Source of the DNA: Owenia fusiformis
Taxonomy: Eukaryota; Annelida; Polychaeta; Sabellida; Oweniidae
DNA: 64,000 nucleotides
Assembly (NCBI GenBank): GCA_903813345.2
Contig: CAIIXF020000002.1
Coordinates: 22,520,455-22,584,454 of the forward strand
Direction: 5' to 3'
Position numbers and translations under genes: made by a program. The first letter of the stretch is position 1; the number at the start of each line of letters is the position of its first letter. The notes under the pieces are model-generated. The model ran no database searches, was not told where the DNA came from, and saw only the letters and a program-made list of their open reading frames with translations. Shown piece after piece: positions 27,801-63,397 of the stretch.

Positions 27801-30800
27801 AGTCCCAGCCATTTTAGATAGTGTATTAGACAACCGTTAAGTTTTCATTTTTTCATTTTTAACTAAGGAATAATACTTGATATATTTTCGCATAAAATAA
27901 TTCACAATTACCAGTAAAATTTTGCAGTGATCAGGAACCATTAAGTATAAGATGTTTACATTAATGTTTTACATTAATTAAATCTTTATTTAAATTTATT
28001 TTTTCCATTACTGCACAATTTTCCCAAATGTGGGATTTGAATACAAAGCTCATATAATAATAAAATCATTATATTAAAATACCATCTAATAATTTATGAC
28101 TGAATTTTTCTTTTCAAATAAATTATTAAAGATGATACCTCTCATATTGTTTATGTCCGCCATTTGTGACAACGGTATCTGACTTTACCGTTTTCAGGCT
28201 ATTCCGGTGTAATAGCAAATGATAACATATAACCATGTGTCAACATCACCAAGGTCAGCATGAACAATACACGATATGTCATTGATGTGACGTCTGAATC
28301 ATTATATTGATGGAATTCTATGCCATGGCATTATTGAACTGTTGTACATAAAGGATATAATAATTTGTTTATCATCTTAGCCAGCTGATATTCGATCCAT
28401 GGATTATTTAGTTCCCTACTTATTCACCCATAGCTAGAATTATAATCTTTAGTCAAAGCCTTTATTCAGAAACTATGATGTTAATTTGCTAATGGTTCAT
28501 TTGACTCCAATGTACTCCTGAGGAACTTGATCAGCAGGTTACAATTACAGAATCATTCCGGAAAAAATGGCACAGCTTTTGACTGGAAAATTCGTCTTTA
28601 TTTTACAAGATTTATGCATATGCAGAATTGTCACTAATTTTTGGACACAAATGTGTGTCAGCGTCTCATTTTTTCAGAAAATTAAATTGCCCCATGAAGA
28701 GTTTGAAAATATGTTTTTATTTTATTTTTTATTCTTTGACAGCTATTAAAAGGAATGTTTGAATTAAAAAAAAAATGTTTTGAAAAAAGTTGTCAGGTTT
28801 TTATTTCTCAAATATTCAAATTACTTGCCATTTTTCAAATAAAATTTATTAATCATCAAATATTCAACTATACTACATTGCAAGACGCATTATTTTTGTG
28901 ACATCACTTATGATACATCCAATCTTACCAAGGTTGAAAAGAAGAATATGTCATGTTTTAAATATTACTGTACCACTGGTTTCTGTGTTTAAAATTTTAA
29001 AAAAATCATTTTTCTCTGAACCACTTTCATACATGAATGAGTTCATTTCTTGCTTGTTATCCCATCAAATGAAGTTTGGAGGGATATAGAGAATGCCCCC
29101 GTTTGTCCGTTCGTACGATAACTCAAATACAGCTGGCCTGATTTTGTTCTTATTTTATACACATGTGCCCTATGTCAGTAGAAGTTCTGCTCGAAAGTCG
29201 ATCTTCAAAATGGCCACTCATTTCGAAATGGTGGCTATTTTAGTGCCGATTTTACAGTAATTTAGGTACAGATGTAAAACTGTAATATTTATATGTTTTC
29301 AAGGTAAAAAAGTTGTAGATATTTAGGAAACACATGGCAGTCATTTTGGAAAATGTTGGCCGTTAATAACTTCAAAAGTAGTCGAGTAATTTTGTTCTTA
29401 TTTAATATATGATGACTTTAAAGGTCATTAGCCATGGAAGTCATGTTTATATCAGCTCCAATATAAACTGCTTTTTTCCACTCTGAATGGATATACATTT
29501 TATTTCTGTAAATTTATAGTGGAAACTATGGATTATATACTCTAGAACCAATTGGACACAAAATATGGTGAGATACTGCTTTGGTTGTTCAGATATTACA
29601 AAGAGAATAGTTTGACTTTTTGTGCATAGGTTTTGCACCATTTTATATTTATGTGGAGAACACTTACCTGTACATAGCCAATTATAATACATGTACATAC
29701 ATATTGTACATAGGACATAAAAGAACAGTGTTGATTGAGGAATATAAACACTTATACTACCATATTATTCAACTGTTATTTGTCATGGATAAAGCAAGTA
29801 AAAAGACTTCGCCTCATTTGAGTAAAGCTGAGAAGAGACGTCTTCGATCTAGAACAATTTCGAATGATGATACTATGATGAACAACCCTAAAAGGAATAA
29901 AAAAGACCGTAAAAAGTCAGACACTGATCAGACCCCTGTAAAAGAACATGAACTTGAAAACAATGAGCCTCCACAATCATTGAACTCAGATCCTGATCAG
30001 ACATGTTTGAAAACTTTGATATCTACCGAAACAGTAATAACAGATTCTCCAAAAAATGATGAGCCAATATTAGGCCAACTCCAAGCTGAAGTGATGAGCA
30101 TAAAACAAGAAATGGACATGATGAAACGCAAACATACTTCTGATTTAAACGAGTTAACCGCAATCATACAGGACCAAGACAAAGATATAGAAGCCCTTAA
30201 ACTGGACAATAAAGACTTGAGAGAACGACTTAGTCTGTCAGAAGGTCGATCAGAAAGATCTGAAAAGGAACTTATTGATGTACAGGCAGAGGTCTTAAGT
30301 CTAAAGGATAGATCAATGAGGGATAACCTTCTATTTTTCAAAATACCTGAAATACGTAATGAAACCAGCAGTGACACAAGAACAATTCTTGGAGAATTCA
30401 TAAAAAATGAATTAAGAATTGACGATGAAATTCAAATCGACAGAGTCCATAGGATTGGCCAACAGAAACCTGATCTATATCCAAGAACCATTGTCGCAAA
30501 ATTTAACCCTTACAAGGGGAAGGAAATTATTATGGCTAATGTCTGGAGACTTAAAGGTACAGGAAAATTTGTGTCCGACCAACACCCAAAACCAATACAA
30601 GAGAAGCAGAGGTATATGTATGAAACCAAAAAGGAAATACTTGAGAAAAACCCACGGGCAAAATGTAATATTACTAAGGAAAAGTTGGTTGTAGATGGCA
30701 GAGTTGTATTTCCACTAAAGACACCGATTAGAGACACTGACACTGTGCAAGATGCACTTGATATGCATGTTAAAAATGGTCCACTTGTTGAGACTCCTGG

Positions 30801-33800
30801 TGGCACCTATCAAGTACACACAGCTGACATCAAAAACCCTACTGACATCAAACCTGTGCTATTGAGAATGTGTGTTGATCCATATGTTGCTAAGGCAACA
30901 AACAATAGTTATGCTTATGTAGTCTCAACTCCCAACAGTAACTATTACGACTTTAATGACGATGGCGATACAGGAATGGGCCGAACAATCAGAAACATTA
31001 TTGCTCAGGAAAAACTAGCAAACACCATAATTGTTGTTTCAAGATGGGACAATGGTCGCTATGATAAGGATAAGTGGAAAACTGTCAAATCCTTAATAAC
31101 AGACAAACTTAGTTCTTAAAGCAACACTGTATTTTCTAATATACAGTATATATGGACGGAACTGAACATTGATCTCTTCATATTTGTTTTTTTTCCTTCA
31201 AGGGAAGATTAATTAGAAATTCTCAAGTTTGTAATCTTAGTGTTTTTTGTTTCTTCTCTTTTTGCAAGGGTATAGAGAAGCAAACTCAAATAATCCATGA
31301 TGACTTTTGGTATTTTTATCTACCATTTAAGTGTATAATACTCTCATTTTACACTGGTTTCAATTCATGGTTAGGTCTATGGGGTGTTTTTAAAATTTGT
31401 ATTGATAAAGAATTTTTGATCTTTTGGAACCCCCCCCCCCTTGGATTTCATTTCATTTTAAACTTTAACCATGAAGGGTATATACAGTATTTGGAAGCAC
31501 AAAATCAAGTAATCTTGATGACTTCTAATATTTTATTTATCATTATAGTACAGGTTTCTTTTTCTATTTGACATTGCAATGATGAAGGATGACACTTTGT
31601 TGGATGCCTCTTGGATTTCATGTTAATTTTAGCCTAACCAGGAAAACCACTCATTTTTCCAATCTAATTTGCTGCCATTTCACTGATAGTTGATATAAAG
31701 TTAATGTTGAGCAAGGTATGCTCAAATCAACCTAAGTTTTATTTACATGTTTCTGGTTTTATAGGTATGCTATTGTTTTCAAACAAAATAATTCATAGCC
31801 GACAGTATTTTCAACTTTTTTCAATATACAGTATAAAACATTGAGTTGTACTGATAGTCACAATGCATGAATTTGGCTTATTATTGCTTGGCTTTTTCTA
31901 TAAGGGCTTTATACCTTTCTCTGTGTTACATAAACTAATGGCTGGCAATCATTTTGTTTGTTTTGTTTTTTTTTGCAAGGGCTCACTACATAAAATTTGA
32001 AACGAGTCCAAGTAGCTCAGCTGGGTAATTATACAGCAAAGCACATAAATGTGTGGAGTAGTTAAACCCAAATCAATTGATTTTTGGAATCATTTCATTG
32101 TAAATATTCTTTTTATTAAAGGATTCTTCTTAGCATCACAATGGTGCCACTTGAATGTATTGAGAAACCAATATTGTATTTTTAACCATGCATTTCTCCT
32201 TTGGAGGCATGCTAAATTTCATGATATATCCAACTTAAACTTTAAAGTTAGTGTAGTTTCTTTTCATTTTTTATTATCTTTGATCCATTTGGAGTGGATA
32301 CACTGTAGAGCAAGGTATGCTCAACAGATACCATTTTTGTTTTTGTCTTACTTTTATGTTTCATGTAAGCATTTTGCTTGCATTTTTGTTTTTGTTCTTT
32401 GTTCATGATGGAAGCATAATTTCATATGGTTTTAATTGCCTTTTCAACGAAAATGGATAATCCCTTGAATGTATTGCCTTTTCATAACTGTTCCAATGTT
32501 GACTTCCTCAATGACACAAATCAGCTTGATTTTTATGAATCTTTAATTTTTGACCCTCTTGATTTTGAGAGGAGAATCGCAACCGAAGACCAATATGAAA
32601 ATGTACAATCAGATATGCAGGACATTGCTCAAAAGTGCAAATTTTTTAACATTGACCAGTTCAACTCAACTGTGAGGCAGGACTCTTTTTCTCTTGTTCA
32701 CTTCAACATGAGAAGTCTTCCTAAAAATAACTGGAAATTTCAAATATTTGAATCACTGAGTTAAGTACTAAATTTTCTGTAATTGCCATGTCAGAAACAT
32801 GGCTTAATTCCAATATTGAAAAACTTTATAAACTTGATGGATACAACTCTGTCTTTAATTCTAGGAATGGTTCAAGAGGTGGAGGCATTTGCCTTCATAT
32901 TGATAAGCATTATTCATTCAAAGTAAGAACTGATCTTCAGTTAACACTTAATCAATGTGAATCCTTAACAATCGAAATTGAGCAGATATCTGGAAAAAAT
33001 ATCCTTGTTACTGGTATATATAAACCACCAAATGCTAATTTAAATGATTTTAATATAGATTTTAATTTACTGCAAGAGAAAATCGTAGCAGAAGATAAAA
33101 TTTCATATATATTAGGTGACTTTAATATTGATATTTTAAAATCAAATCAACATGAACAAACAAATGAATTTATATGTAACTTGCATTCAAATAACTTTAT
33201 ACCTTTGATATATAGACCTACTAGAATTACTCAAACTACTGCCACACTTATCGATAACATTTTTTCAAATGCAAATAACATAGCTCAAACAGGTGTATTA
33301 CTTTATGATATTTCTGACCATTTCCCAATATTTGCAATTAATGATAGAACAAAATCTTGTGTTAAAAAAAGAAAAATTCAATATCGGGTTATTAATGATG
33401 AAACACTTAGTAGACTTAAAAATGAGATATCTTTGATCAACTGGGATAATTATGATGAATCTCCTTGTATTAACACTGCTTACAATTCATTTTTAGATAT
33501 TTTATCCAGAACATATAACAGATGTCTTCCTATTAAAAATAAAATAATTAAAACGTATAATGATAACAATAAACCATGGATAACTTTAGGGATAATAATT
33601 TCAGCCAAATATAAAAACAAACTGTACACCAAATATAAGAAAAATCCAACTTTGCAGAATAAGACAGTTTACACTAAGTATAAAAATAAATTAAATCATG
33701 TTATCAGAAATGCAGAAAAGATGTTTTATAAAAATAAATTTGAAGAGAGCAAAGGTAATATAAAGAAATCTTGGAATATTATTAATAGCATTTTAAAAAG

Positions 33801-36800
33801 AAAACCAATTAATTCAAATACAAATTCCTCATTTGATCTTGGTGAACGGAAAACAACTAATGGTGAAGAGATAGCAGAACATTTTAATCACTTCTTTAGC
33901 ACAATTGGTAAAAAACTTGCTGATCGTATTAAGACTAACACTGACCCAATGATTAACATGAGAAAAATGAATCAAAATTTAAACTCTCTGTTCATTACCC
34001 CAGTTACAATAAATGATGTCACAACAGGAATTAAATTACTAAAGGATTCTGCAGCTTCAATTGACGATATAAAACCAATAGTTATAAAATCGCTTCATGA
34101 ATTTCTAGCAGCACCACTTGCACAAATTTTCAATTTATCAATTTCTACAGGTAAATTTCCAGATGCACTTAAAATTGCTAGAGTTATCGCAGTATTTAAA
34201 AAGGGACTTAAAGATAAATTCACTAACTACAGACCAATTTCTATTTTGAGTGTTTTTGCGAAAATGTTAGAAAAACTTATTCATGATAAGGTAATGGTAT
34301 TCTTAGAAAAATATGAATTACTCTATTTACAGCAATATGGCTTCCGAAAAAAACATTCCACATATATGGCTCTTTTAAATTTTATTGAAAACATAAGAAC
34401 AGGTTTAGACAAATCGGAAACAAGCATTGGAATATATATTGATTTAACAAAAGCCTTTGATACCGTGGATCATAATATACTGTTGAATAAACTTGAATTT
34501 TATGGAATTAGAGGAACCCCACTTTCTTGGTTTAAAAGTTATCTTGAAAATAGGAAAATCATTACAGAATATACAATACATGATTTTGAAATTGACCCAA
34601 GTACTATAACTGATATGAAATATCAATCATCTGCTTCTAATATTGAATATGGAATTCCACAAGGCTCTGTTTTGGGGCCCCTCTTATTCATTATTTTCAT
34701 AAATGACATATATTTAACATCAGATAAATTAAAATTTGTCCTATATGCAGATGACACAAATATTTTATTGACTGATGATAACATTGATAATTTAGAAAAT
34801 GATATAAATGAGGAATTGAAGAAGGTTCATGATTGGATGACATCTAACAGATTAACACTCAATGTAGAAAAAACAAAATTTATGATTTTTGACATAAAAA
34901 GAATCAACAAAATTGACAACTTTGAAGTAAAATTAAATAATCAATCAATAGAAAGGGTAAATAATATTAATTTTCTAGGAGTAATTATTGACTCCAAGTT
35001 AACATGGGCTGCTCACATAAATGCACTTTGTACCAAAATTTCAAATTTAATTCGATTAATATATAAAACTAGACACAAACTAACTTTGAATGCCTTGCTG
35101 ACAACCTATTATTCTTTAGTATATTCATATATAAGTTATGGAAACATTTTATGGGGCAATGCAACAAAAAATCACTTAAACAGACTATTTATTTTGCAAA
35201 AGAAATTTCTAAGAATAATGACAAATTCTGAAAGAACTGCTCATTCAAGTCCCATCTTCAAAAAGTTCAAAATATTAAATATTTTTGACATTAATAAATT
35301 TCAAACGCTCACTTTTGTGCAGAAAACTGTAACAGAATCTGTAGACTTTCCGTTTCATAATTTTAAACATTTTTTTCAAGAGAGAACAGATATACACACC
35401 CATGATACTAGATACAAATATAATTTAACAATCAAAAGGTTTAGAACTGAAACTGGTCGAAAATCAATTGCGATTAGAGGAGCAATACTGTATAACTCAC
35501 TGGCTAAAGACTTCAAAAAGGCAAAATATATAAAGAAATTTGAAAAACTGATAAAGAATGATCTTATCAGTAAATACCAATGATAATCTGTGCTTCCATT
35601 TTTCTCTTTCATTTTGATTCATTTAGCTTTTGATCTATGACTAAAACATTACTTTTAAATATTATGTCCCATGGAATATATACGCCCCTTGGGGTGTCTT
35701 TTTCATGTAATTGATGAAATGTTGTATGATGTAATTTTGAATGAATAAATTGAATTGAATTGAAATTAAAGCATGGCACACTGTCTTTTGACACTTTAGC
35801 TTTTAGGTGGCCATTTTGAAAATGGCCAACATTTTATATGTGTCATTTATGTTTTTACGATAATACAAAATGTATGTAAAACTGTAATATTAATATGTTT
35901 TCAAGGTAAAAAAGTTTGATAAGACATTAATAAAGGTCAAAATGTGGATATTTAAGAAACACATGGCAGCCATTTTACAATTTTGCTATAACTTGAAAAG
36001 TAGTGGAGCGATTTTGTTCATATTTAATGTCTGATGACTTATAAGCATGGCACACTGTCTTTTGAAAATGGCCAACATTTTACACATATCATTCATGTGT
36101 TTTTTACTATAACGCGAAATGTAATAGAGCGACTTTGTTCATATTTGATGATTTGTAAGCATGTCATACTGTTTTAGGGCACTTTGGCTAGTACATGGCC
36201 TTTTTGAAAATGGCCGCCATTTTTATGTGTGTTATTTTACATTTTCCACTATAACTGAAAAAGTAAAAGAAAGATTTTGTATACATTCGATATGTGACTA
36301 CTTATAAGCATGGTACACTGTTTATTGACGATTTTGCGCTGGCAAAAATTACTTTGTAAGATGCCAGAATTATCAATATAACTCTTCACTTTTGTTACGT
36401 AAATGAATTCAATTAAATACAAAAATGGCCTCATATCTTTGTTCACTAGTTACAGAGACAGATACAGTTCCCAATGTGCAGGGTGAATAAATAAGAACCA
36501 ACATACAAATAAATCAATGATATGTCATTCATTTACATGGGAATACTGTACTTCTACTTATTTGGCAGATTTTCTGTTTTGAACATTAGGCAGCTACTTA
36601 ATTTGGAGGACTTGCAATACTACAATGTGCCTAAAATTACAGAGGAATTTGGCAGCTACTTAATTTGGCTGATATTAACAATTTGGCGGATCTGCAAAAT
36701 TAAAACGGCCACCAAATTGAGTAGAAGTACAGTTTGGTTGGCTGAATAATCATTTTTTGCACAGTGGGCCAAAAACGGTTCTGGACCAAGTTTTAGACAT

Positions 36801-44290: not shown

Positions 44291-47200
44291 CTTTAAACAC
44301 GTTCATAACTGAACGGTCAATGTGAGTTGAATTAAAATAAAAAATATCAATTATCTGCGCATTTTCGTTATATTACGTCATACGGGATTTCGTGCTTTAA
44401 GTTGGCTGAAAGTGGAAATGGCACGTGTGCGAAAACGTTTGTTATCAATTCATCTTTCAAAACACATTTTTATTTTTTTACATAGCTATGATCTATGATA
44501 TATAACCTATGTAAAGAATTATTTTCAAATTAATTGCTAGGTTAATTCAATAAGCAATTCTGAGGTATATTTGAACTTTAATTCCATAGCAGATGTAATT
44601 AGGACAAAAGTTTTGAAATTCAAGAAGAGATTACATCAATCAAAATAAATCTTATAATTCAAACAAGTTGACAATACTTGGTTCAGTTCTTTCATTTTCA
44701 ATCATACCACGGTCATAGATTAACATAAGTGACCGTTCGAAAACATACCATTTTTGTAGAAAATGAAAGAAAATCGCTTTATAACATGTATTGAGTAATT
44801 GTCAAGTTCACGTCTTAAGTTTGATGTGGTAAAAAGCATTCTTCATTAGTCACACATTTAAGTTAAGGGAAGCCAAGATCATTTTAAAAATGAAACATTT
44901 GAATAGATATTTTTAACATGGAAATACTTGTAGAAAGTAAGCTTATACTAGTAGATTTGCTAGAACTAGCTGTTTGGAATTCATCAACTTTTCTCCACAG
45001 GATCATTTCGTAGTACAAATGCAGGTCATTCAAAGGAAATATAGGTTTCAACATCCCCGTCTATGAATATTGATCTTTTTCAGACATCAAAGGTAAGTTT
45101 AAAACAGAAATACTTCTTACGAATCCAAATTACATTTAAACTTAGAATTGTGATCTACGATCTTATGGGTATGTCACAAATTTGATTAGATACATTCACT
45201 CAGCAGGCCGTTAAACATGTAATTAACTTAACAAGCGTAACTATAGGTAACTTCGATTTTAGTATGTTCAAGTTCTGTAGTCTCGAGAGTCAAACGATTA
45301 TCATAGTTTATTTGGCCTGCTTTTAGAATTGGGAAAACAAAGGCAAGGTTTATGTTTTATGAACGTTCCGATTTGATAGCAAACGTTATTTTTGAGTGTA
45401 TTAAATCAAACAAAGCTTATTGCGTCGGGACCTGTACGTTCGTCCAATTAAATGCAAATGTGCCGTCAATTAAAGAAACATGCACAGTGGTACACCGTTT
45501 TTGGATAACATAACACTGATAATAAAAATTCATCAATTGTTATGAAATTTGCACCATCATTAAAAAGAATCTTTCCGCAACTTTCTATGTCTGCACTGAC
45601 AAAAACTTGAAATCCCCGCCGTAAAGATATAGTCCCACGCGGATGTGCACGTCATAAAGCTGATGGGTTTAGGCAATGTGTCGTTCTACTGGTTGCAGTT
45701 TCAATTTTTTGTGGACGGTGTTTGGCGGTTAGTGTTCCAACAGTCCGGTTTATATCAAATTCTTACAACGTTCAATAACTACTGTTTTAGTCTGGCTTCA
45801 AATTTAGCTATCAACATATACCTGTATAAACGTTATAAGACTTCCAATACATTTTTGCCAATATATGTTACCATGGCAACAAAAGTCGACATTGAAGGTC
45901 AAAAAGGTATTTTTCAACTTGCTGCAAATTGACGAATTTATTTTAAAGATCACCTGGATCAAAATTGATTGATTGATTGCTTGATTTAGAGTTCTAAAGT
46001 AGTTCCTAAGTTTTAAAATCTAGAACTGATAACTTTTTGGTGGTTAGACATCTACAAAGTGTAACCAAGTTGATTTTTCAATCATAAGATCATGATAATG
46101 AAATCTTATTTTCTTATTTCTAGACCATATAGATATTCTCGACAATATAGATCATTCTAGATATTTGTAGACAAGTAATCGAATTCAGATTTTTTATTTG
46201 GTGCAAATCCAACTGAATTGATGTCATGGCGTCATAGAATCTTGGCCCCTTGAAGAAGAAATATAATCGAAAGCTGGTTTACTTTGATGGAAAAATTAAT
46301 ATTTCATTGATATTATTTATTTTTCGGTATTGTTTTCTTTTGTTACATTATTGAATTTGCTGTAGAGGGAAAAATCAGTTTTACATGTATAAGATCACGT
46401 TTTATAGGTCTGTGTTACAATCCATACGTATCATATTCTTCAGCAACATGAAAAAGAAGAAGGTATGAACGGATTGCTTTGATGTTATATTTACAATATA
46501 TATAGCAAACAAATAATTGCACCAAGAAGGCATACTAAAGCGTGAACAATCAGAAGACAAATCCTTTTGAAATCAAAACGTTGTCTTTTGAACATTACTC
46601 GTCAATAATCTTTTTTGATAGTGACTGATATATTTTTTTGTACGGCCTCTATGGACTTACATATATTCTGAAGTCGTATGAAGATATACCTAAGAATGTT
46701 ATATTTATTAGGTCTATGTGTATACCACAAAATATATATATTCCTTATCCTAGCATATTACACAATATCTTGGCATATATAATGTTCAATCAATATTAGT
46801 GGAATATTCGTTAGGACAATAGCTTTCATTAGGTAAATCTACAAGGTGTTTCAAAATGACCGCCCGACCCGGTGTAAAAGGGTAGGTTGTCCTATCAAAT
46901 GTTGGTCCTACTCTCTATTGATTTATATGCTGACCTAATTACAATTATTTTCCTTATTATTTATACACAGTCAGGGCCAGTAAGGGCCGTAAGGAAAGGG
47001 GACCATAATCCCCAGGAGACCATAATTTCTTTTACACCGGCCTGCTTGCACAGCCAATCCTCGATCACATAATCAATATAATAATATCATAAAGACCTCA
47101 TTGAATTTCTGACTTTATTGACCAACTATATTGGCATGATTTATTAATGAGAGCATAATTTTTGAGCTTATGTTTTATAGTCACCATTATATTACCCTAA

Positions 47201-47850
47201 TTTGTAAGCGTTATGGATTCTTTATGACTGTCATTTGTAACAGATATAAAGAAAAGAGCAAATTGTTTAATCAATGTATCTTTCATAGCTCTCTGGGTAT
47301 TTCTTTGAAATATTTAATAATTTTTTCTTTCATATACCATTAAGACGTATTTTCAGTATCCATCAAATAATTGGTTCATGCATATTACTATTAGTGTCAT
47401 TATGAAACAACATATTCATAAAGTTCATATTCCAAGAAAATATTAAAAACACCATCATTTTGAGTCTAAAATCATGGGCTTTCAATTAGAACCATGCTAA
47501 AACCAGCTGTTTTATATTTCAAAAAGCGATATCATCAATGTGGATATCGATTCCATTGAGATAAGGGTTTCTGAATGGTTGGGGAGGGGGGGGGCGACAT
47601 TTGACTCTATTTGATCGTTGTTAAGGATGCTTGGATTTTTGTATTCCTTATAACCGATTTCAATAGCTCTGAAAACAGCGACATCTTTACTCGTTTCTTT
47701 GATTGAAATGCTTCAAGAAGTCAACCGATGGTAATAATTAAATATACGTTTGAATACCTTTTTTATGAGCAATAACTGATAGTAAACATACATTTCACTC
47801 TAATATTTCTATCGTACATAAGCAATAATTGCCAGTGATGTTAAGTCATT
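44291..47850. other. Intergenic, no gene recognised
   Basis: AT-rich DNA. A fragment of repeat R2 (gaaggtcaaaaaggtatttt) lies at 45893-45950. Frames at 45645-45932 and 46887-47072 show no known domain. A G run lies at about 47582-47594. Confidence 0.4.
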
Positions 47851-47870
47851 TATATATACACTTACTCAAC
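47851..47870 (+). promoter_or_regulatory. Possible core promoter of the SnoaL-UPF0462 gene
   Basis: TATATATAC (47851-47859) is followed by TTACTCAAC (47862-47870), 16 bases before the ATG. The same TTACTCAAC lies at 60003-60011 upstream of the paralogue, so it may be part of a conserved promoter or start region. The TATA word may be chance in AT-rich DNA. Confidence 0.3.
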
Positions 47871-47886
47871 GCTGCATATCTTCAAT

Positions 47887-50800
47887 ATGTTTCAATATTC
47901 ATCTCTTTGTATTTTTATAATTCTGTTCTCTTTATCGCAGGGCCAGCAATGTGAAAAACAAGACATAAATATGCTAAAGAAGGAGATTTTGGAAGGAGTA
48001 GATTCAAAGATAGCAACATTGACTTCGCTAATGAAGAGGCAAAATAGGAATTTGAAGGACAAAATAAAAGAAATAACGGATGAGTGTACTAAATCACAGA
48101 GTAAGTCTACCAAAGCTAAGGCAATGCACCCTATCCCCTTGGACCTTTGACATTATTTATAAAGGCCCGTGGGAATAGAGCACTGGCGGCCAAAAATGTC
48201 ATTGAATTTTCCGATTTGGGCCCAATTTTTGGTTTAAATGGATGAACTTCCGTTGGAGGAAATATTTATTTTCATCATTTTCAACAAGAAGGAGATCGAT
48301 TTGTGTCTAAATATTTTACCTGTATCTTAATTGTACCATTCGGTTACTCTATAATAAGGAAGCATGTATTTCAATGTATGAGATGAATAGATGCCTTCCA
48401 GATAGTTAGATCGGCAAGATGTAAGATAGTAAGACGTAATGTCTTCGTAACCAGGCAGGTATGGCTGGCCGTCTGGACCAATGTATCGTCATACTTTTAA
48501 CTCCGTAAAATCTACTTTTAACGCCGTAATAAATACTTTAAAAAATAAATAATTTTTTCTGGGGGTGTCCCACCAGACCTCCCTGAACGCTCGTTTTTCG
48601 CTTCGCTCAACTCGTATTACCACCATGAAATTGTGATGTACATTCCGACATGATGTGACTCAAAAATGTCATATCAGTTGGACTGGAATTCTTCATTTGC
48701 TGTGTTCCTTACATGTATCCCTTATTAGAATATTGGTACTTGGATTTTTGCTTAATTGATTAGTTTTGAATATAGCTGTCGTAAGCAATACCGTGTATGT
48801 TAATCAGGGGAACATTGAACAATCAGATAAAAATTCTAAGTAACTGAAAAAATCGTTTTGTAGAATCTGAGACAAACATAGAAAAAGTTGAAAATCGAAA
48901 CCATTAAATATCGCTTTTGAAACCATCGAATAACACTTTTTAAATAGTGAAAATATGATATCTTGATCTACATATCAAATATATCTTCACGTAATATTCA
49001 ATCTATATACTTGCAACCATGGGATAAACTGCATATCCGTTTGCATGTACTGATTTCTATACGTGTACTGCAACAGTAACACTGGATATTTTTTGAATTA
49101 CAGACCAAATTCAAAGAGAATTAAACGCTAATTTAGAAGAATACAGTAAACTTATCAAGTCGGGGGACTTTGTGGCAGCCTCTAACTATTGGTCCAAGGA
49201 TGGCACAATGGTCCTTGCTAACAAATTCCAGTTAAATGGAAGACAGCGTAAGTGAATGGTGCTTGAAATATACACTCCCCTCCATAGGTTTGGCAACCAG
49301 TATTTTTAATTAGAAAGCATATTAGAGCATGTCAATATTTGAATCTTAATTTTCCCCTTAGCCTAATTTACATAAAGGAAAATGAAGATTTTTTTAAATG
49401 GTCAAACATAAACAAGCAATAATATGTGATTCAAAGTAGAACTTCCGGGTTACCAAACCTATTGAGCGGGTGTAACTATTATGTACAGAAGTATTTACCA
49501 TAGGTCTATATCCAGATTTACTATGCACATACATTTATTACAATGCTCATACTCATATTTGACTATGTCAGCAGTTATTAATGGTGAAAATATACGACTG
49601 GTAATACATGATATTCGCTTAATAAAACACAAAACAGACAAGGCAAACAGTAGTATGACAGCATATTAATATGCAAACAATAAATACTGTAGATAATTAT
49701 CTAAACGAACGAAGTTCGGTAGGGATAAAGTGAAGCCCTCATTCCGTCCGTCCGTCCGTTAGTCTGTCCGTCCGTCTGTCCGTCCCGGCAATAACTCAAA
49801 TACTGTTGGCCCGATTTGGTCATATTTTGTAAACATATACCCTATGGGGATAGAAGTTCTGCTCGAAAGCCGATATTCAAAATGGCTGCTCATTCAAAAA
49901 TGGCGGCCATTTAGTGCCGATTTTACAGTAATTTAGGTACAAGATGTAAAACTGTAGCAATATGTTTTAAATGTAACAAAACTATATAGGACATTAATAA
50001 AGCTAGAAATGTAGATCTTAAAGAAGCACATGGCAGCCATCTTGAAAAATGGCGGCCTTTACTGACTTTACTCGCTATTTTAAGATTTTTGCTGTAACTC
50101 TGATAAGTAGTGGAGCGATTTTGTTCATATTTTGTATGTGAATACTATAAGCATGGCACACTGTCTGGTGACACTTTTGGTAGAAGGCAGCCATTTTGAA
50201 AAATGGCCGCCATTCTAATGTATTTTACTATATATAACTCGAAAAGTAGTGGTTTGACTTTGTCCATATTTGGTATGTGAATACTATAAGCATGGCACAC
50301 TGTCTAATGACACTTAGTAGAAGGCGGCCATTTTGAAAAATGGCCGCCATTTTATCTTATTTTACTATAACTCAAAAAGTAGCAGAGCGATTTTGTTCAT
50401 ATTTTGCATGCGAATACTATCAGCATGGCACACTGTCTTATGACACTTTTGGTACTGTAGAAGGCGGCCATTTTTTCAAAATGGCCACCATTTTATCCTA
50501 ATTTACTATAGCTCGAAAAGTAGTGGAGCGATTCTGTTCATATTTGGTATGTAAATACTATAAGCATGACACACTGTTTAATGACACTAGTGGTAGAAGG
50601 TGGTCATTTTGAAGAATGGCTGCCATTTTTGCTATATACTTTGTTTGTAAAAATGCCAGCTATGGCTGTTCGATGGGATTTGCTACGCTTTGACGTTGCT
50701 GTTGTCTAGTTTATTTTCCTCCTCCCGCTCACCCCCTTGGCAAAAGCTGAATGCGGGCCTGTACCTATACCTGTACCGATAATATGTTCGACTGCTTAAA

Positions 50801-53800
50801 ATAACTGTTTTTTCATTATTTTCAAGAAATCGAGGATCACCTAAAGAGCCTTGTGAATAGAGGTCACCACCTGTTTGTAACCCCAGGACGATTCGAAGGC
50901 AACTGCCGCTATCAAGTTATGCTTGGTGATATTGACTATTATATTGATAACAAAGATGGAACTTCATCTCTCTTTATAAACGGCAGGTGGGTTATTAAAA
51001 ATTGGAATTTTAGGGCCTCATTATCTTGATAAATATATTTATCCAAATTTCAAAAAGGAAGCCTCCAATGCGAACATAACCAATGATTTTTGTGATTTAT
51101 TGTTCGTGCATCAACTAATACTAATATTCACTACAAATTTTAACATCATTTATCATTTTGGTTTCAACTTTTCAAAATGTAATAATTAAATTTGATACAA
51201 TATGAGTACATGTAACGAGCAAGTATTTAAAATTCTATTAAATTTCTATATTTTAGGATGATGGCGTATTTTACATACAACAGTTCTAGAAACAAGTGGC
51301 TTATCGTTTTTTCAATGGACACGTTTGATATTCCACGACCAATTTACGAAGGAGTGTAAGTAATGTTGACAATTCTACATCCTCACCCCAAATATTGAAT
51401 ATTGAAAAGTAAACGTTTTCAACAAACTCAGCTCAATGAGCTACTAGTCCCTGACGTCATAATCATGATGTTGTGAAACAGCTCCTTGTGCATTCATTAA
51501 AGAACTACAAGAGACTATGTTTGAAAGTTACAAAAATATGTTTAAAAAACCTCAAAAATAAAATGAACGTAAAAATAATTAAAATATGTTTACTCTGCTA
51601 GATGCTTTATTTCATTGCTTTGCAGGACTTTGCAATTTGAAATAACCACACTTTGGGACAGTAAGTCAATTGATCATCCCCCAGTAACGTTACAACTGCA
51701 ACGGCGTGGAAACTTCATATGGCTTATGATCGACGCTCCATTCTTCAATGACACTCCTAGCCCCGGTGGTGCCCCTGGTGAACCATTTCCCAAGCTATGG
51801 CAATACGAAGGTAAACGCAGGTTGCAATATCATATACAAGAACAAGCTCGTATGACACTTTTCTTCAAGTGGGGTGCAGTTTTTACTGAAAAGAATAAAC
51901 TGGTCAATTTTTGCCACGTATATCAATGGCAAATATGGGTCAGGTGGGGGGTCGGTTTACTAAAATACCCCCCCCCCCCAAGTTAACCAACTCAACCTAT
52001 TTTGTTGTACTTTAATTGGTTTTATATTTTGTATGAGCATAGGCCAAGGGAAATTCACTTCTATATTGAGCTCAATACTAGTAGTACCTTTATTTTTGGA
52101 GCAATTTGGAATGTGTGCCATAAACCTTCACCCAGGAACTTTTACCATGTTCAGTGATTTATGGAGTTTATGAACAAGTGTTTGAATCAATTTGAAAACA
52201 ATGTTTTTCAATTGTTTTCATTTTGGGGGAGCGAGGGGGCAGTGAAAGATAAATGCCTCTTCGGAAAATTTTAGTTCAATATGCTGTCTGGTTATTTCTG
52301 GGCAGAGCGGGGCGTGAAGTTGTGGCCCCTCTATCTAAGAAATTTGATCAATCCAAGATACTACATTATATTGGTGATTTCTGGACACTTTTAAAGTGTT
52401 TGACAATAAATAAAACTGGGAGAAAACAGAGACAAACTGAGAGGGGTGCCAGAGCGGGAGCAATGGTGACCCCCCCCAAAAAAAAAACATTGACCATTTC
52501 AAGGTGCTATTTGATGATGTCAGGGTACTTTTTACGGTGTCTGAGATGATAATTAAAATGAATAACCTTTTGGAAGAGCAAGGGATGGTCCACTCCCTCT
52601 AGAATTTTTTTCAATCGTTTGCTCTTTGGGGATAATATATACATTATGTTGGCGATTTCTGGACACAATGATTTCTAAAACTGAGAAAACTGAGGATTAT
52701 GATTATATGGCTGTGTAGATCTCAGAAGAAAGAAGAGTTGTTCTAAAATATTCCCTTGGTATTTTAGTTTAAAATATACAGTACATAATAAAATGTTCTT
52801 TAATTTACAGTTGTGGAGGCATTTTTCTTGGGAGGAGGTGGAAGTGGTGAACCTCTTTATTTAGAGGTGGAGTTCTCGCCGTAAGTCCATCAAATACAAT
52901 TTTGGACGAGAAAATGCAGTACTAATTTTCTCCCTATCTAGCACAATTTAAAAATTAATTTATCGATTTAAGAAAATCCAAAAAACATCATCTAAGCATA
53001 GGAGTGTGATTTAGAAGAAAATAGTTCACTCAGGCTCACCAGACTCGAACAAACTCGAGCATTACATTTTATATTATATATATCAATGGTTTTCATTTTA
53101 GACATGGCCAACACCTCATTCTATTGATGAAGGGGGTTCGTAAGGCATTAAAGGTAGTAAGAGACACTTATGACGTGCACGGACCTGGGGACAATTCGGA
53201 AAATACGGGCTAATCTCAGCTTTAAGCGTTATTATCTGCCTTATTTAAAACCTAACTATGCGCTTTATATATCATTTTGAAGTAATTTTTATTCGCATTT
53301 CACTGAAATTATTTTTCCTTGAAAAGTTTGATGGGATCTACTATATTTTTAAAGTTAGATGTAGCCCGACATAGTCAAATACGCTGTATGACGTAACATT
53401 TCACGCTTACATGGTTCGTTGAAATCGGGATAACTTTTGAAAAACTGATCAGAATTTTACTAAAATTTCACATTTTATTCAATAGAATATGTTCATTTAT
53501 GACGTCACAATTGCATAACGGCTACAGTTCAAATTGTTTTATATGAACGCTTTTAAAATTTTCAAAATTGTGTAAGGTTTTGAAGGCGAAGGAGACAAGC
53601 AATAAGTTTACCTTTATTTAACCTTCTAATTTAGGTCTGATTTCAAAAAAATTTACTGCACAATATTGTCATGGCGAAATTTACAAAACAATAACCGATT
53701 TCTTTATTTATCAAATGATATCAAAATAAGAGCTGATTTTAGAGACTTGAAAAATGTAACGCATCGATTTTTTACCACAAATTCCATACATATCAATTTA

Positions 53801-56800
53801 TGCTAACGCCCCGCGTTGATTTCCTGACCGTTTTTCAAAAATCAAAAACATTTTAGAAATATTGTCCTCTAGATCTTGTTGCTCTGTGAATTTTACCAGG
53901 ATTGAATAAGGATAAAGCATCTTATTTCTAGGTTGACTATAACTCGACAAAATGTTACGCTTGTCTTTATGTATACCGCCCATTGTTTTGCATGTTAGTT
54001 TTTTAATATTATGTTACGCTAATTGTCCCCAGTTTCGTGCGACGTATAACTGGATTAATGGCCGGGGAGCAAAATACAATAAGTATTATAATATTCAAGT
54101 TTGTAAAAATAAATATATCCTATTATCAGGTATTGCATATTATTACCACCTTGCAGGGCCTATTCTAGGGGTTTTAGAACTAGTTGAGAAGGCATTAAAA
54201 TTGCTATATTGACGTGAGCAATATTGTGTCGGGCGTTAATGACTTTAGTCGGGCAATAATGACATTATCCGCCCGGCTATGTTTCCCAGGAAAAGTGAGA
54301 TCGTTCAGTGCGTAAGATTTTCTATTTCAAATTTGCTATTTCATCCCTGGGCATTAACGGTGGTAATAATAGTAATAACGTCATTTCTGCGGGCAAAATT
54401 GTGAAATATTGGACCTTGGGCCTGTGGCCCTTAGTCCAATATTTCACTGTATTACATACCCAGCGAAGCATTTGTATTGAAGTCAATGGAGCTGAGGGTC
54501 GGCTATATATTCCTGTATAGCCGCCAAACCTTTTACCATGACAATCTTATGACGTCATCGGGACGTCATGTTTCATTTCTTCCTAATTTCACACGCACAC
54601 AGACACGTGGCGTCATTGATATAACGTAGCCATGATATAAAAGTATGTAATACAACAGTTATGTCCGTATCATTGAATATATGCCTTCGGTCTGTCGTAA
54701 TATAACCCTCGCAAGCTCGGGCTATATTGGTGACAGACCTCAGGCATATATTCAATGATAGGGACATAACTGCTAAGTATTACATACCCAGCTAAGCATT
54801 TGTATTGAAGTCAATGGAGCTGAAGGTCGGCTATACGAGGGTTGTCCCAGAAGTAATGCACTATATGCTCTAACTTTATCAATGGTTAATATTTTTCCAT
54901 GAAATTTTCAGTAAATGTTCCTTAGAGACATTTTGATCATTCTACAAATTTTCATGTTGACTGATAAAACTATATTGATGTTATAATAAAATCAAGTTGG
55001 TGAGTTTGGGTAGGGCGGGGCAGGTTATACAGTCACGTCAAAAGGAATAAAAAATTGAAAATATGAAATAATTAAACAACAAATACCATTTTGTGCAGCT
55101 ATAAGAAGTATGCCAAAAAATACATTTTAAGATACTAAATTACAATGAGCACAACTTAGATTTAATGGATGTATATTACAGAGTGTCCCATTTCACATTT
55201 TCTCAAAATATTGCCCTTTGTATGTTATGTACTTTTGATGCCTGTCAGGTCAAACACTCTTGGCAATTTCTTCCACTGTGACTTGTGAAGTTTTTGCCTC
55301 CCATGTTTGGAGTTGTCATCCAGGGTCAAGTCATCTCTTTTAAATCTCTTCTGCCACCTCATAATTGTAGTTCTATCTGGTATATACTCCTTATATACTT
55401 TCTTCATGGTAGCATAAGTTTTGCGTGGCTGTGAGTCCAAGTGAAGTATGAAATTAGGCCACCAAACGCAAGGCCTTCTGGTATCAGGTGAGAATTTCAG
55501 CCATTTTTTCAATTTTTTGACTTTGACAGTATTTGAATTTTTGACTATTGAACTGTGATATTATGACAACACAGTGCTAAATGTCATTATTTTTACTTGT
55601 TTAACATCATGCTGAATAAATTTAACAATTTCCCAAACATTTTGATCATTTAAAAGAAAGAAATATTAATAAAATAACACTTTGGATCTTTTCATAATTA
55701 GAGAAATTGGTACCTGCCCCGCCCACCCCTACCCCCATGTTGCTATAGCAACCATATTAAGACTTAATATTAATGTTTGATGCTGAAACTTCAGGATATA
55801 ATAGACAAGACTTCAATTGTTATATACACAAAATTTCAGCTGAATTGAAGAATATTGAAGCAAGTTAGAGCATATAGTGCATTACTTCTGGGACAACCCT
55901 CGTATATTCCTGTATTACATACCCAGCGAAGCATTTGTATTGAAGTCAATGGAGCTGAAGGTCGGCTATATATTCCTGTATAGCCGCCAAACCTTTTACC
56001 ATGACAATCTTATGACGTCATCGGGACGTCATGTTTCATTTCTTCCTAATTTCACACGCACACAGACACGTGGCGTCATTGATATAACGTAGCCATGATA
56101 TAAAAGTATGTAATACAACAGTAATGTCCGTATCATTGAATATATGCCTTCGGTCTGTCGTAATATAACCCTTGCAAGCTCGGGCTATATTGGTGACAGA
56201 CCTTAGGCATATATTCAATGATAGGGACATAACTGCTAAATGTTGCCCTTTGAAATGACGTTATTGTACTATTAATGGACCTTCAACCAACAATCTTAAT
56301 CGATAATACATCAAATGCATGACTACCGTTCGAGTAGATGTGTTTTGTTATGTCTTATTCACCAGCAATATCGCTTCATTTGAAATCCCTTAAGCTTCTA
56401 TCAGTGTCTATCATGTGTTCTTTTATCAATTTCAAAATTATTTTCAGCACAGTCTCCCAGTTGACTACACATCCAAGATAAATGGTTCCACATGGACTGG
56501 TCTTGCAAGGATACCCTTGAACTATTTCCCACCGAATGTTACAATGTTCAATGCATATGCTATCCATGGATCAGGGAACCAAAGAATGTATGAAGCGTTG
56601 TATCCTACGGAGGAAGGGAAATACACTGGTCCTGATTTGTAAGTGATGTATAATGAATTCGTTTATTTCACCCAGCATATTTTGGGCATATTTTCTAGGG
56701 ATAAGACGTTTTGAAACATACTTTATAAATGCCTTGTGGTTTTAGGAAGATAAGTTGGAAAGATATATCCCGTATCCTGATTTTGAGGTTTCCATATCTA

Positions 56801-56989
56801 GAACCTCCATATCTCTCGCTCTCGGGCTACCTACCTATGGATAAACCCCATATCCAAAACCTCCGAGTACATAAGTAATAATTCCCTTTCTATTTCAGTC
56901 ACAGATTAGACTACTTCCAACCAATAGACTTTGCCAAGCTTGCCCCGGAGAACACAAATGCTGAACTCTCTAATCTGTGGACAGAATAA
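47887..56989 (+). CDS. Secreted coiled coil - SnoaL/DUF4440-like - UPF0462 fusion protein
   Basis: Nine exons: 47887-48100, 49104-49247, 50827-50986, 51257-51355, 51626-51810, 52811-52880, 53102-53153, 56448-56638 and 56899-56989. Phases match at all eight joins (1,1,2,2,1,2,0,2) and give 401 residues. Exon 1: signal peptide (IFIILFSLSQG), then a charged helical segment. Exons 2-4 (about residues 72-205): an NTF2-fold SnoaL/DUF4440-like domain (LIKSGDFVAASNYWSKDG, FEGNCRYQV, MAYFTYNSSRNKWLI). Exons 5-9: a complete UPF0462 domain as in vertebrate C4orf33, with DAPFFNDTPSPGGAPGEPF, QYEVVEAFFL, YLEVEFSPHGQHLILL, NYFPPNVTMFNAYAIHG and MYEALYP. UPF0462 has no established biochemical role; DUF4440-like domains often bind or convert small molecules. 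The fusion behind a signal peptide points to an extracellular role. The domain calls rest on motif recognition. Confidence 0.85.
48895..49045 (-). repeat. Fragment of the R1-linked repeat
   Basis: Contains aaccatcgaataacacttt, tgatatcttgatctacatat and tatatacttgcaaccatggg, matching 3309-3430 partly in inverted order. In intron 1 of the fusion gene, ending about 60 bases before exon 2. Confidence 0.45.
49700..50708 (+). mobile_element. Helitron-like non-autonomous element with internal minisatellite
   Basis: Begins TCTAAACGAACGAAGTTCG after an A and ends in a weak stem (ACGCTTTGACGT) plus TGCTGTTGTCTAG before a T, the A^T insertion, 5' TC and 3' CTAG pattern of Helitrons. Inside: a GTCC microsatellite (49747-49785) and about four minisatellite units of 125-140 bp, each containing aaaatggccgccatttt and cgaaaagtagtggagcgatt. 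No Rep/helicase. It forms 64 percent of intron 2 of the fusion gene. Confidence 0.65.
53177..54040. mobile_element. DNA transposon remnant with 20-bp TIRs and GACGT duplication
   Basis: Left end GCACGGACCTGGGGACAATT and right end AATTGTCCCCAGTTTCGTGC are inverted repeats with two mismatches. GACGT flanks both sides directly. The 864-bp interior has no recognised transposase. Starts 24 bases after exon 7 of the fusion gene. Confidence 0.65.
54401..54447. repeat. 47-bp hairpin
   Basis: GTGAAATATTGGAC and GTCCAATATTTCAC frame complementary GGGCC/GGCCC blocks with a 3-base loop. Immediately precedes the duplicated unit that follows. Confidence 0.7.
54836..55902 (-). mobile_element. mariner-like element, deleted
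   Basis: Ends CGAGGGTTGTCCCAGAAGTA and its exact complement, continuing with aatgcactatatgctctaac on both sides. TA duplications lie outside (54834-54835 and 55903-55904). The 1067-bp interior retains only an N-terminal transposase piece on the minus strand. Confidence 0.85.
55225..55512 (-). pseudogene. mariner transposase N-terminal HTH fragment
   Basis: A 95-codon frame with KTYATMKKVYKEYIPDRTTI followed by MRWQKRFKRDDLTLDD and GRQK, the second helix-turn-helix and linker typical of mariner transposases (WHKRFK...DDPRSGRP in relatives). The DDE catalytic core is absent, so at most a DNA-binding fragment could be made. Confidence 0.7.
56741..56880 (+). repeat. R1 dispersed repeat fragment in a short intron
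   Basis: Carries agatatatcccgtatcctga, ttttgaggtttccatatc and ggataaaccccatatccaaa. It occupies about half of the 260-bp last intron of the fusion gene and stops about 18 bases before the acceptor of the last exon. Confidence 0.7.
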
Positions 56990-57042
56990 ATGTAATAAAC
57001 ATCTGGAGATTGTAAATCCATGTAACATGAAATCGAAATGAC

Positions 57043-60038: not shown

Positions 60039-63000
60039 ATGCTCAGACTTCTAGCACTTATATTTTTCACAGTTTTATTCTCATTTTCAAAGGGCCAACA
60101 ATGTGAAAAGCAAGACATTACCTTGATGAAGAAGGACATTTTAGAAGGAGTGAATTCAAAAATAAAAATATTGGCGTCCCAGTTGAAAAAACAGGATAGG
60201 AAGTTGACGAACCAGATTAAGCAGTTGAATGAAAAAATGGCAGATGGCGCTGAGAGATGCCCATCCACTACAACATGTACTAAATCACAGGGTAAGTTTT
60301 GTTTGTTTTATAAATAATTGACTTTTTGATATTTTTGGCATATTGTGATATATCCAATGTTGTTTAGATTATTAGTATTTAAAGATTACCAAACTAATGT
60401 TACAACTTTACTTTTACGATGTGGATAATCGAATAGAAAGATCGTACTTTGATGTTTACGAAAAGTAATTCGGTCCTCCATAGCGCAAAAGTTTTCCGAT
60501 CTCATCCAGTGATAACCGATAGTACAAATACTAATGGTACTTTGTTTCATATATTTTGCAGCCACAATTCAAGAAGAATTAATAGTTTTGGTCACGGACT
60601 ACGGAAACCTTGTGAAGGCCGGAAAATATGACGAAGCTATTAAGTTTTGGACTGAAGACAGCCTTCTTGATGTTGGTAGCAACTTAAAGATGAAAGGTAG
60701 AGATGGTAAGTATGGTACGGCCAGAGGAAATACATAATCTATTTGAAACGATAAAATAACATATCTGACAAATATTTGGAAAATAAGTACAGGGGAAAGG
60801 AAAGAGAACATAAAAATAGAGAGACATTATATATATTCAATGCTTTATTGTACTAAAAATCCCTTCGGGTGAGTGTACAGCAAATAAATATGATAAAATA
60901 AAACTATACATACAATTACAATAACATACAATGCAAATTTTACACGGCATATAATGACAATATAATGTGATTGACTGATCATTAGATATATACCAACAAC
61001 TACTATTAGCCTACATGTATATATTTATATTGATAATATAGTTGATCTCTTTTCAATTATTTCATAAAGGTATTTTGCAAAGGTATACACATGTTACCCT
61101 CAGCATTAAACATATAATAAGCCCTTTCTTCGGTAGTCAATACAGTTAGATTTGGGCAAATCGAGTTAAACGTATCAAAGTATTCATATCTCATTTTTTC
61201 CAATTTTTGGCACTCAAAAATAAAATGAGTTTCCGTACCAGTGTTGATTTTACATAATTTGCATTTTCTTTGATCTCTCGGAATTATTGGTCTTGTATAT
61301 CTTCCTCGCTCTATTTCTAAATTGTGTGCACTTATTCTTAATCGCGTCATAGATTTCCTATGTTCAGCGTTCTTTATTAAATTCAAATATGGTTCTTTTT
61401 CCCATCGTTGTTTGATATTATTCAAAAATTCTAATTTCCCTTTATTATCATTGACAGTTTTTTCCCAATATTTTATATATCTTTTTTCAAGGATTTTCTT
61501 AATATCAAGCGGTTTGCTATTAATGTAATTTTTATCTTGTGGTTGAACATATGCCATTATTCTATCAATGTCATAGTACCATGATGGTTGATTATGAACT
61601 TTTGATAGTTCAATACTATCTGCATATGCATTAATTAGTAATGAACTCGTTCCTTTATTTTCTATATGATTTAAGTATTTAACTTGTTGGTAAAATATAT
61701 TGATACACAGAGGGAATCTACCTAACTCACCCATCGTAGCTAAATTACTCGTTTTTCTATGCACCCCTAATAGAAACTTCAAATAAGATAGATGTAGTAA
61801 TTCCAGTGGAAGTGACTTGTCATATTTCATTTCAAGGCCAAAATCTTTATTTTTCAGAAGATCTTTATTAGTTATTAGACCACCGCACCCCAGATTTCAC
61901 ATCCATATAATAAAATTGGTTTTACTAATATATCAAATAATTTCAGGCACAAAGTTAGGTTTATATCACCATGTGTAAGCATACTTATCAATTTGAATTT
62001 CGCCTTTTTTTAATAAAGATTGCAACTTGTTTCATCGATCCGTTGGCATGGAATTCCATACCCAAATAAGTATACTTTGATACGTTTTCAATTACCTGGT
62101 CCCCAATGTAGAATATATCATTACATCGTTTACCACTTTTATTAAACATTACAATTTTAGTTTTATCAGTATTGATATCTAAGTTCCATTGTTTAATTTT
62201 TTCAATTTTATGTCCATATCAGTTTTATTTGCAGTAATTATGGCTAAATCATCTGCAAATAGCAGGCAACTTATTTTTTGTTTTTGTAATTTTAAGTCTG
62301 ATTCAAGTGTTAATTCTTCAACAACATCATTGATGTAAATATTAAACATTAATGGACTGAGTGGGTCCCCCTGTTTAACCCCCCTCTCACATTTAATGAT
62401 ATCAGTATGGTCACCGTTACTGTTAATTCTAACTGATGCTAATTATGATATGAATGCATTTTTCAATAATATTGTACTGTCGTCCTTTGGCTCCTTAATT
62501 TTAGTTTGATTGACACACTAGTCAAGAGTTGACTTGCACTATAATTATACTATTTTCCAGAAATTAATGAAGGCCTAAAGCACATTGTTGAGAAGGGCAT
62601 TTACATGAAGGTTACCCTTGAACACTTTGAAGGAAACTGCAGATATCAAGTAACAACTGGAGACGTTGACTTTTACATGCGTCACAAAGATGGCACCACA
62701 AGTCTCATTGCTCCTGCAAGGTGAGACAAGGCGTTAACATGCAAAATATCACCACCTACCATTTGTTGCAGACATCGACCGCCGGATGCCAACCACCAAA
62801 CCCAGACTACCAAATCCCAACTGCCGAACACTGACCACAAAAATACAAGATAAAAAGAACAAAACGAGGCATTAACATGCAAAATGTCACCACCTGCCAT
62901 TTTTACAGACGCCGAAAACAGTCCACAAAAAAGTTTGAGACTATAACAGTATGACACTTCATGTGGCAGTGTGGTGGTAACATAGCAATTTAAAAATATA

Positions 63001-63397
63001 GTCATAGGCATAGTTGCCCATGAGGCAAGCGAGACAAATGCCTCATAGAAATGTATCTACAAATCTGTAAATCTATTCAGTATTCAGACTTTTACTAAAC
63101 AAACCATTGAACTGAGATCAAAAGGTAGAAATACACCTCCTTTGGGCTTAAACCAGGCCTAATTTCTTATAACTAAATGTACGCCCTTGATAATGACTGT
63201 CAATGTGCGGTCATAAGTTTACAAGTAAGTGCATATATTGAATCAGCAAAACTAAAACATAATGGTTGATCTAATTTCATTTTTTGAATGTTTCTCTTTT
63301 TCATTCTAGGATTATGATTTATTTTAAATTCAACGACTCAACAAACAAATGGCAGTATCATTATGAACTCAACACGAGGCAGACTGAAGATGGGTAA
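60039..63397 (+). CDS. Secreted coiled coil - SnoaL/DUF4440-like protein, tandem paralogue
   Basis: Four exons: 60039-60291, 60562-60705, 62561-62720 and 63310-63397, giving 214 residues to the stop at 63395-63397. Exons 2 and 3 have exactly the lengths (144 and 160) and phases of those in the gene at 47887, so this is a tandem duplicate. Shared blocks: signal peptide, QQCEKQDI, EGVNSKI, CTKSQ, FEGNCRYQV and KDGT. The NTF2-like domain is complete (YGNLVKAGKYDEAIKFWTED, VDFYMRHKDG, MIYFKFNDSTNKWQYHYEL). The stop codon overlaps a possible donor (GTAAAG after GATGG, phase 2, the phase used by the relative here), so a longer form with a UPF0462 domain beyond the window cannot be excluded. Poly(A) signal AATAAA at 63681-63686 favours ending here. 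Confidence 0.8.
60832..62500 (-). mobile_element. 5'-truncated, decayed LINE in paralogue intron 2
   Basis: Minus-strand reverse transcriptase remains: a GVKQGDPLSPLMFNIYINDV block at about 62325-62390 and CLLFADDLAII at about 62232-62270, followed by frames broken by stops, then the open 61057-61830 frame. Its 3' end has AATAAA at about 60845 and an AT-rich tail. The upstream half of ORF2 is missing. Confidence 0.8.
61057..61830 (-). pseudogene. LINE ORF2 C-terminal fragment with zinc knuckle
   Basis: A 257-codon open frame downstream of the reverse transcriptase palm. It contains LHLSYLKFLLGVHRKTSN, a motif common after the RT in metazoan LINEs, and a C-x2-C-x8-H-x4-C knuckle (CKLCKINTGTETHFIFEC). 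It differs from the LINE at 1117-2660, so the two belong to separate families. Stops upstream separate it from the RT core. Confidence 0.75.
62729..62999. repeat. R2-related duplication in paralogue intron 3
   Basis: Two copies about 137 bases apart of ttaacatgcaaaatgtcacc followed by acctgccattt and a cagacgccg-type word. The same words occur at 59383-59400 and 59783-59820. Confidence 0.55.

Follow-up and report, generated by a model that had tools for sequence, protein, structure and literature searches.

A locus in the genome of the annelid Owenia fusiformis raises the question of whether two domains that are found apart elsewhere in the same genome, an NTF2-like (SnoaL-like) domain and a UPF0462-type domain, are joined there in a single secreted protein. 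The locus lies in a window of 64,000 nucleotides (the whole stretch of DNA analysed here, C2:22520455-22584454 of the 498-Mb genome), and the first-pass annotation had described it as nine exons giving one frame of 401 residues. Such a frame is indeed present on the plus strand at positions 47887-56989, where nine exons with GT-AG borders and consistent entry phases (0,1,1,2,2,1,2,0,2) give, by their predicted splice joins, 1206 nt, that is, 401 codons and a TAA stop. Exon 1 (47887-48100) encodes the putative signal peptide, a hydrophobic run after the Met, and a charged helix, and contains Cys22 and Cys67. The NTF2-like domain begins in exon 2 (49104-49247), continues through exon 3 (50827-50986, with the motif EGNCRYQV) and ends in exon 4 (51257-51355), which closes with a phase 2 donor (GT/GTAAGT). 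The UPF0462-type domain, preceded by about 206 residues, begins in exon 5 (51626-51810) and extends through exons 6 (52811-52880, VVEAFFLG), 7 (53102-53153, HGQHL) and 8 (56448-56638, YFPPNV and YEALYP) to exon 9 with the TAA stop (56899-56989), and AATAAA follows at 56994 and 57043. A donor for exon 7 at 53139 breaks the frame and was rejected; the donor at 53153 restores it and gives an exon of 52 nt, the same length as its equivalent in the stand-alone UPF0462-type gene described below. The fused frame is more than a product of chance because exons 1-4 align with a tandem paralogue and exons 5-9 with that stand-alone gene. A mariner-like insertion lies in intron 7 (54832-55906), where 45-nt perfect inverted repeats bracket a stretch whose minus strand weakly matches a Mos1-type HTH (PF17906, E 0.0018, which is under the cut-off). 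A 300-nt direct repeat has one copy on either side of this insertion.

The signal peptide was judged from hydropathy and from comparison with the paralogue. Hydropathy of the exon 1 product (9-residue window) peaks at 3.16 within residues 6-16, and the hydrophobic run is conserved in kind, though little in its letters, between the fused gene and the tandem paralogue, with GQQCEKQDI following in both. The paralogue (60039-63397, plus strand; exons 60039-60291, 60562-60705, 62561-62720 and 63310-63397, the second and third being the counterparts of exons 2 and 3) encodes 214 residues that consist of signal peptide, helix and SnoaL-like domain only, and ends at a TAA without a UPF0462 part. Exons 1-4 of the fused gene share 91 of 201 aligned residues (45%) with it, at a pS of 0.605 and a pN of 0.318 (201 codons). 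Whereas the tandem paralogue passes the cut-off of Pfam SnoaL_4 (PF13577; 27.1 bits, cut-off 24), the domain of the fused gene has no Pfam match up to E 10, and its weak matches are to NCBIfam TIGR02246 (E 0.12) and, in the PDB, to yybH (E 0.043). The putative NTF2-like label of the fused gene thus rests on the SnoaL_4 match of its tandem paralogue. A third NTF2-like copy, on C2 near 2.816 Mb (L006), is identical to the focal domain at 39 of 129 positions (E 5e-20, single comparison); its last exon likewise ends in a stop, with no UPF0462 part. The whole-genome search with Pfam SnoaL_4 gave no match even at the tandem paralogue, and such a search is accordingly insensitive exon by exon; one weak whole-genome match to the NTF2-like family was found on C10 (E 4.6). 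Downstream of the fused gene, no convincing UPF0462 exon was detected in the 16,946 bases from window position 57001 to the end of L005, where the sole match had an E of 6.8.

The charged helix has no significant heptad periodicity by a rough test, in which 272 of 2000 shuffles of the focal helix and 206 of 2000 of that of the tandem paralogue reached the observed moment. A Prominin match of the whole fused protein (E 0.016, below the cut-off) falls on the helix and was taken as chance. Two further loci resemble exon 1. On C7 (L003:3268-4325) there is a 1.07-kb, 90% copy of window positions 47155-48188, which takes in exon 1 with the DNA upstream of it and the first part of intron 1, and the later exons were not found in the L003 stretch around it. 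The idea that this copy is a working gene was not supported, with differences at 6 of 214 exon sites against 40 of 718 upstream sites (P 0.11), counts that ignore gaps, of which the flank has many and the exon one of three bases. On C3 (L007:3355-4295), an exon like exon 1, with signal peptide and helix, precedes a domain of the extracellular Link type (Xlink, E 5.4e-21). This N-terminal exon matches the tandem paralogue with an E of 5e-9 and the focal exon with 7e-6 in single comparisons, or 0.036 and 0.25, respectively, at whole-genome scale; the likeness hints at a common secreted module, and charged helices inflate such scores.

The unfused relative of the second half lies 1.15 Mb from the window gene (C2:23731039-23736139, minus strand) and encodes, in five exons, a protein of 196 residues that starts with MDFEIT. 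Exons 5-9 of the fused gene are identical to it at 149 of 194 aligned residues, and therefore contain a full-length domain (~195 residues) with its frame intact. No NTF2-like exon was found in the DNA around the stand-alone gene (L001, L002). The motifs of the fused half are taken to be those of the UPF0462 family (vertebrate C4orf33), which to our knowledge has no assigned function. In vertebrates, UPF0462 is a single-domain protein without a signal peptide. The stand-alone copy fits this description and the fused protein does not; the latter contains a UPF0462-type domain and is not a typical UPF0462 protein. No matching model for this half is present in the Pfam and NCBIfam libraries searched, and the putative UPF0462 label rests on the family's motifs and on one printed Saccoglossus UPF0462 peptide (GQFDFPDFHR, PMC10142993), with which the focal GKYTGPDFHR agrees at 6 of 10 positions. 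A resemblance to CBM9/DOMON folds, also proposed in the first-pass annotation, found no HMM support among the Pfam models, with matches considered to E 10 for the stand-alone copy and to E 1 for the focal domain in a search limited by HMMER filters that discard most matches above E ~0.1, and no such PDB chain by profile; the one match in the PDB profile search was an oxidoreductase (E 0.49). Searches for prokaryotic or viral relatives of UPF0462 with narrow patterns, which give weak evidence of absence, confirmed none: in genome contigs, two patterns gave 116 and 6 matches that all failed on inspection, as did 177 in viral contigs, and plasmids likewise yielded no confirmed relative.

The junction between exons 4 and 5 was compared with the start of the stand-alone gene. 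The two UPF0462-type genes share the position of the splice acceptor, which in the stand-alone gene is four nucleotides before the ATG and would end a 5'UTR intron. In the fused gene, this ATG is replaced by TTG (51630-51632). No Met occurs in the open frame of exon 5 when it is followed back to the preceding stop. In the 2.3 kb from 49248 to 51566, a search for single ATG exons with a phase 2 GTRAG donor yielded three ATGs only, all inside exon 4 and all using exon 4's own donor. The replacement of the ATG, together with the conservation of the frame of exons 5-7, favours translation from upstream and a fused, secreted product.

When exon 4 is left unspliced, the frame stops at once at a TAA (51357-51359), AATAAA follows about 200 nt later (51557) and ATTAAA occurs at 51496 and 51578, so that a short isoform or two separate genes have to be weighed against the fused reading. 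It is improbable that two neighbouring genes make up the locus, of which the first, NTF2-like and secreted, would end at the TAA that follows exon 4, and the second, of UPF0462 type, would have its own start exon elsewhere upstream. Such an arrangement would agree with the other two NTF2-like family members found, both of which end in a stop in their counterpart of exon 4 without UPF0462, and with the TAA and AATAAA just named, but the TTG in exon 5, the upstream frame devoid of Met, the scan that yielded no other ATG exon with a suitable donor and the mere 270 nt between exons 4 and 5 all speak against it. Nor is the TAA at 51357 independent evidence of a gene end, because the phase 2 GTAAGT donor itself yields a TAA. 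The stop of the tandem paralogue stands in the same relation to a GTAAAG as does the exon 4 TAA to its donor, and could be either an old stop or the trace of a donor that is no longer used. We regard it as similarly doubtful that both forms are made, with retention of intron 4 giving a short secreted NTF2-like protein alongside the long fused form in a competition between splicing and polyadenylation. The short form would be built like the tandem paralogue, and the stop and AATAAA closely follow the exon 4 donor; however, AATAAA is frequent by chance at 33% G+C.

Between the fused UPF0462-type half and the stand-alone gene, pS is 0.77 and pN 0.206 in exons 5-7 (100 codons), with no stop or frameshift, and exon 9 has a dN/dS of 0.13 (29 codons; pN 0.109 against pS 0.518); these values are pairwise and do not distinguish the branch on which constraint acted. 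In a neutral simulation of the stand-alone exons 5-7 (2000 runs), no stop arose in 35%, 14%, 8% and 3.6% of runs at 0.1, 0.2, 0.3 and 0.5 changes per site, respectively. Since exons 5-7 are old (their synonymous sites are saturated) and yet open, the fused copy is not simply a recent duplicate. Exon 8, in turn, is identical to C2:23733360-23733550 (L001) at 188 of 191 nucleotides (dS 0.025, dN 0.014; 63 codons), and this likeness reaches only about 6 nt into the flank on either side. The best reading of the pattern is a gene conversion that was probably confined to the exon because the introns are not homologous. The notion that the whole UPF0462 half is a decaying copy which seems intact through recent conversion from the stand-alone gene, for which the lost ATG and the nearly identical exon 8 might be cited, is very unlikely given that exons 5-7 and 9 lack such near-identity, are free of stops and frameshifts and have a pN far below their pS. 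The fused domain retains none of the three Cys of the stand-alone protein (P ~0.05 given 38 of 101 residues changed). Such a replacement would suit an oxidising compartment, but at this probability it is no more than suggestive. No gain of sequons accompanies the fusion, with three in the fused domain and four in the stand-alone domain.

The reading that one gene encodes one secreted protein, composed of signal peptide, charged helix, NTF2-like domain and UPF0462 domain, is, together with an origin by read-through splicing, the one that we consider probable from the sequence. Three NTF2-like and two UPF0462 loci of these families were found in the genome, and the focal gene alone has both. We take the fusion to be the derived state, because two of the three NTF2-like loci and one of the two UPF0462 loci are unfused and the vertebrate UPF0462 protein is single-domain. 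The simplest route to it would be as follows: the stand-alone UPF0462 gene was duplicated, and the new copy ended up just 3' of a secreted NTF2-like gene; read-through transcription then allowed the phase 2 donor of exon 4 to be spliced to the acceptor that closes the UPF0462 5'UTR intron and precedes the ATG by four bases; and the ATG, no longer needed, would have been free to decay to TTG while the former 5'UTR bases became coding. The proposal in the first-pass annotation that the domain had been fused and moved to the secretory pathway is thus borne out as far as the unfused relatives of both halves and the loss of the ATG with the frame kept support it, unlike its CBM9/DOMON component. 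Overall, we judge the finding to be real at the level of the gene and its likely origin to be clear, on the evidence of one genome.

A fuller account can be offered tentatively and with less than even confidence: a cytosolic family may have been moved to the secretory pathway by capture of a 5'UTR acceptor, losing its start codon and all Cys of the stand-alone relative while exon 8 was kept near-identical by exon-limited conversion, to yield a secreted two-module ligand binder. The function that we propose for the fused protein on the main reading, too, is extracellular ligand binding by two modules, with a non-catalytic NTF2-like pocket. The fusion partner and the change of compartment provide a handle on UPF0462, as the pairing points to the binding of small molecules or other ligands, which a secreted, soluble fused protein would make testable. 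The locus also illustrates clearly how a new gene may arise, and both halves still have unfused relatives in the same genome.

Other genes of a recognition type lie near the fused gene in the window, namely one with a Fibrinogen_C domain (6127-6792, minus strand, E 2.1e-47) and one with a C-type lectin domain (19526-19945, plus strand, E 6e-11). An open frame of 502 residues at 29611-31116 is charged in its N-terminal part and matches UPF0029 in its C-terminal part (E 4.5e-9), and downstream of it is a 943-codon frame (32752-35580) that is reverse transcriptase-like by eye; the former is possibly the first frame of a retrotransposon that took up UPF0029.

Compared with the UPF0462 family (vertebrate C4orf33), with which it presumably shares its motifs, the focal copy differs by the signal peptide and the NTF2-like domain in front of it, and compared with the stand-alone copy of the same genome it has lost the start Met and had all three Cys replaced. 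Within the SnoaL-like/NTF2-like superfamily (PF13577), the tandem paralogue meets the curated cut-off, whereas the focal domain is too diverged to do so and is joined to UPF0462. Our literature search, which was partial and covered open-licence papers, found no description of an NTF2-like and UPF0462 architecture. In one study, a screen of hepatic cells showed lower LDL uptake after disruption of C4orf33 (-21%, P 0.007), and in people the gene was not significantly associated with lipid traits (PMC8953622); another describes synergy of C4orf33 with the antiviral protein ZAP (PMC3353916). Neither the LDL-uptake nor the ZAP result fixes the function of C4orf33. The secreted NTF2-like seminal protein SFP-1 of C. 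elegans likewise combines a signal peptide with an NTF2-like domain in an animal, but it has 133 residues and no second domain is described in the available part of the report (PMC12669617), the likeness being one of architecture. The proposed origin finds its closest counterpart in transcription-induced chimerism, in which splicing runs from one gene into the neighbouring gene, as it would have done here, and the first exon of the downstream gene is omitted (PMC2174484). The chimeras described there are human transcripts for which a protein product was not detected, whereas the Owenia frame seems to be fixed in the genome.
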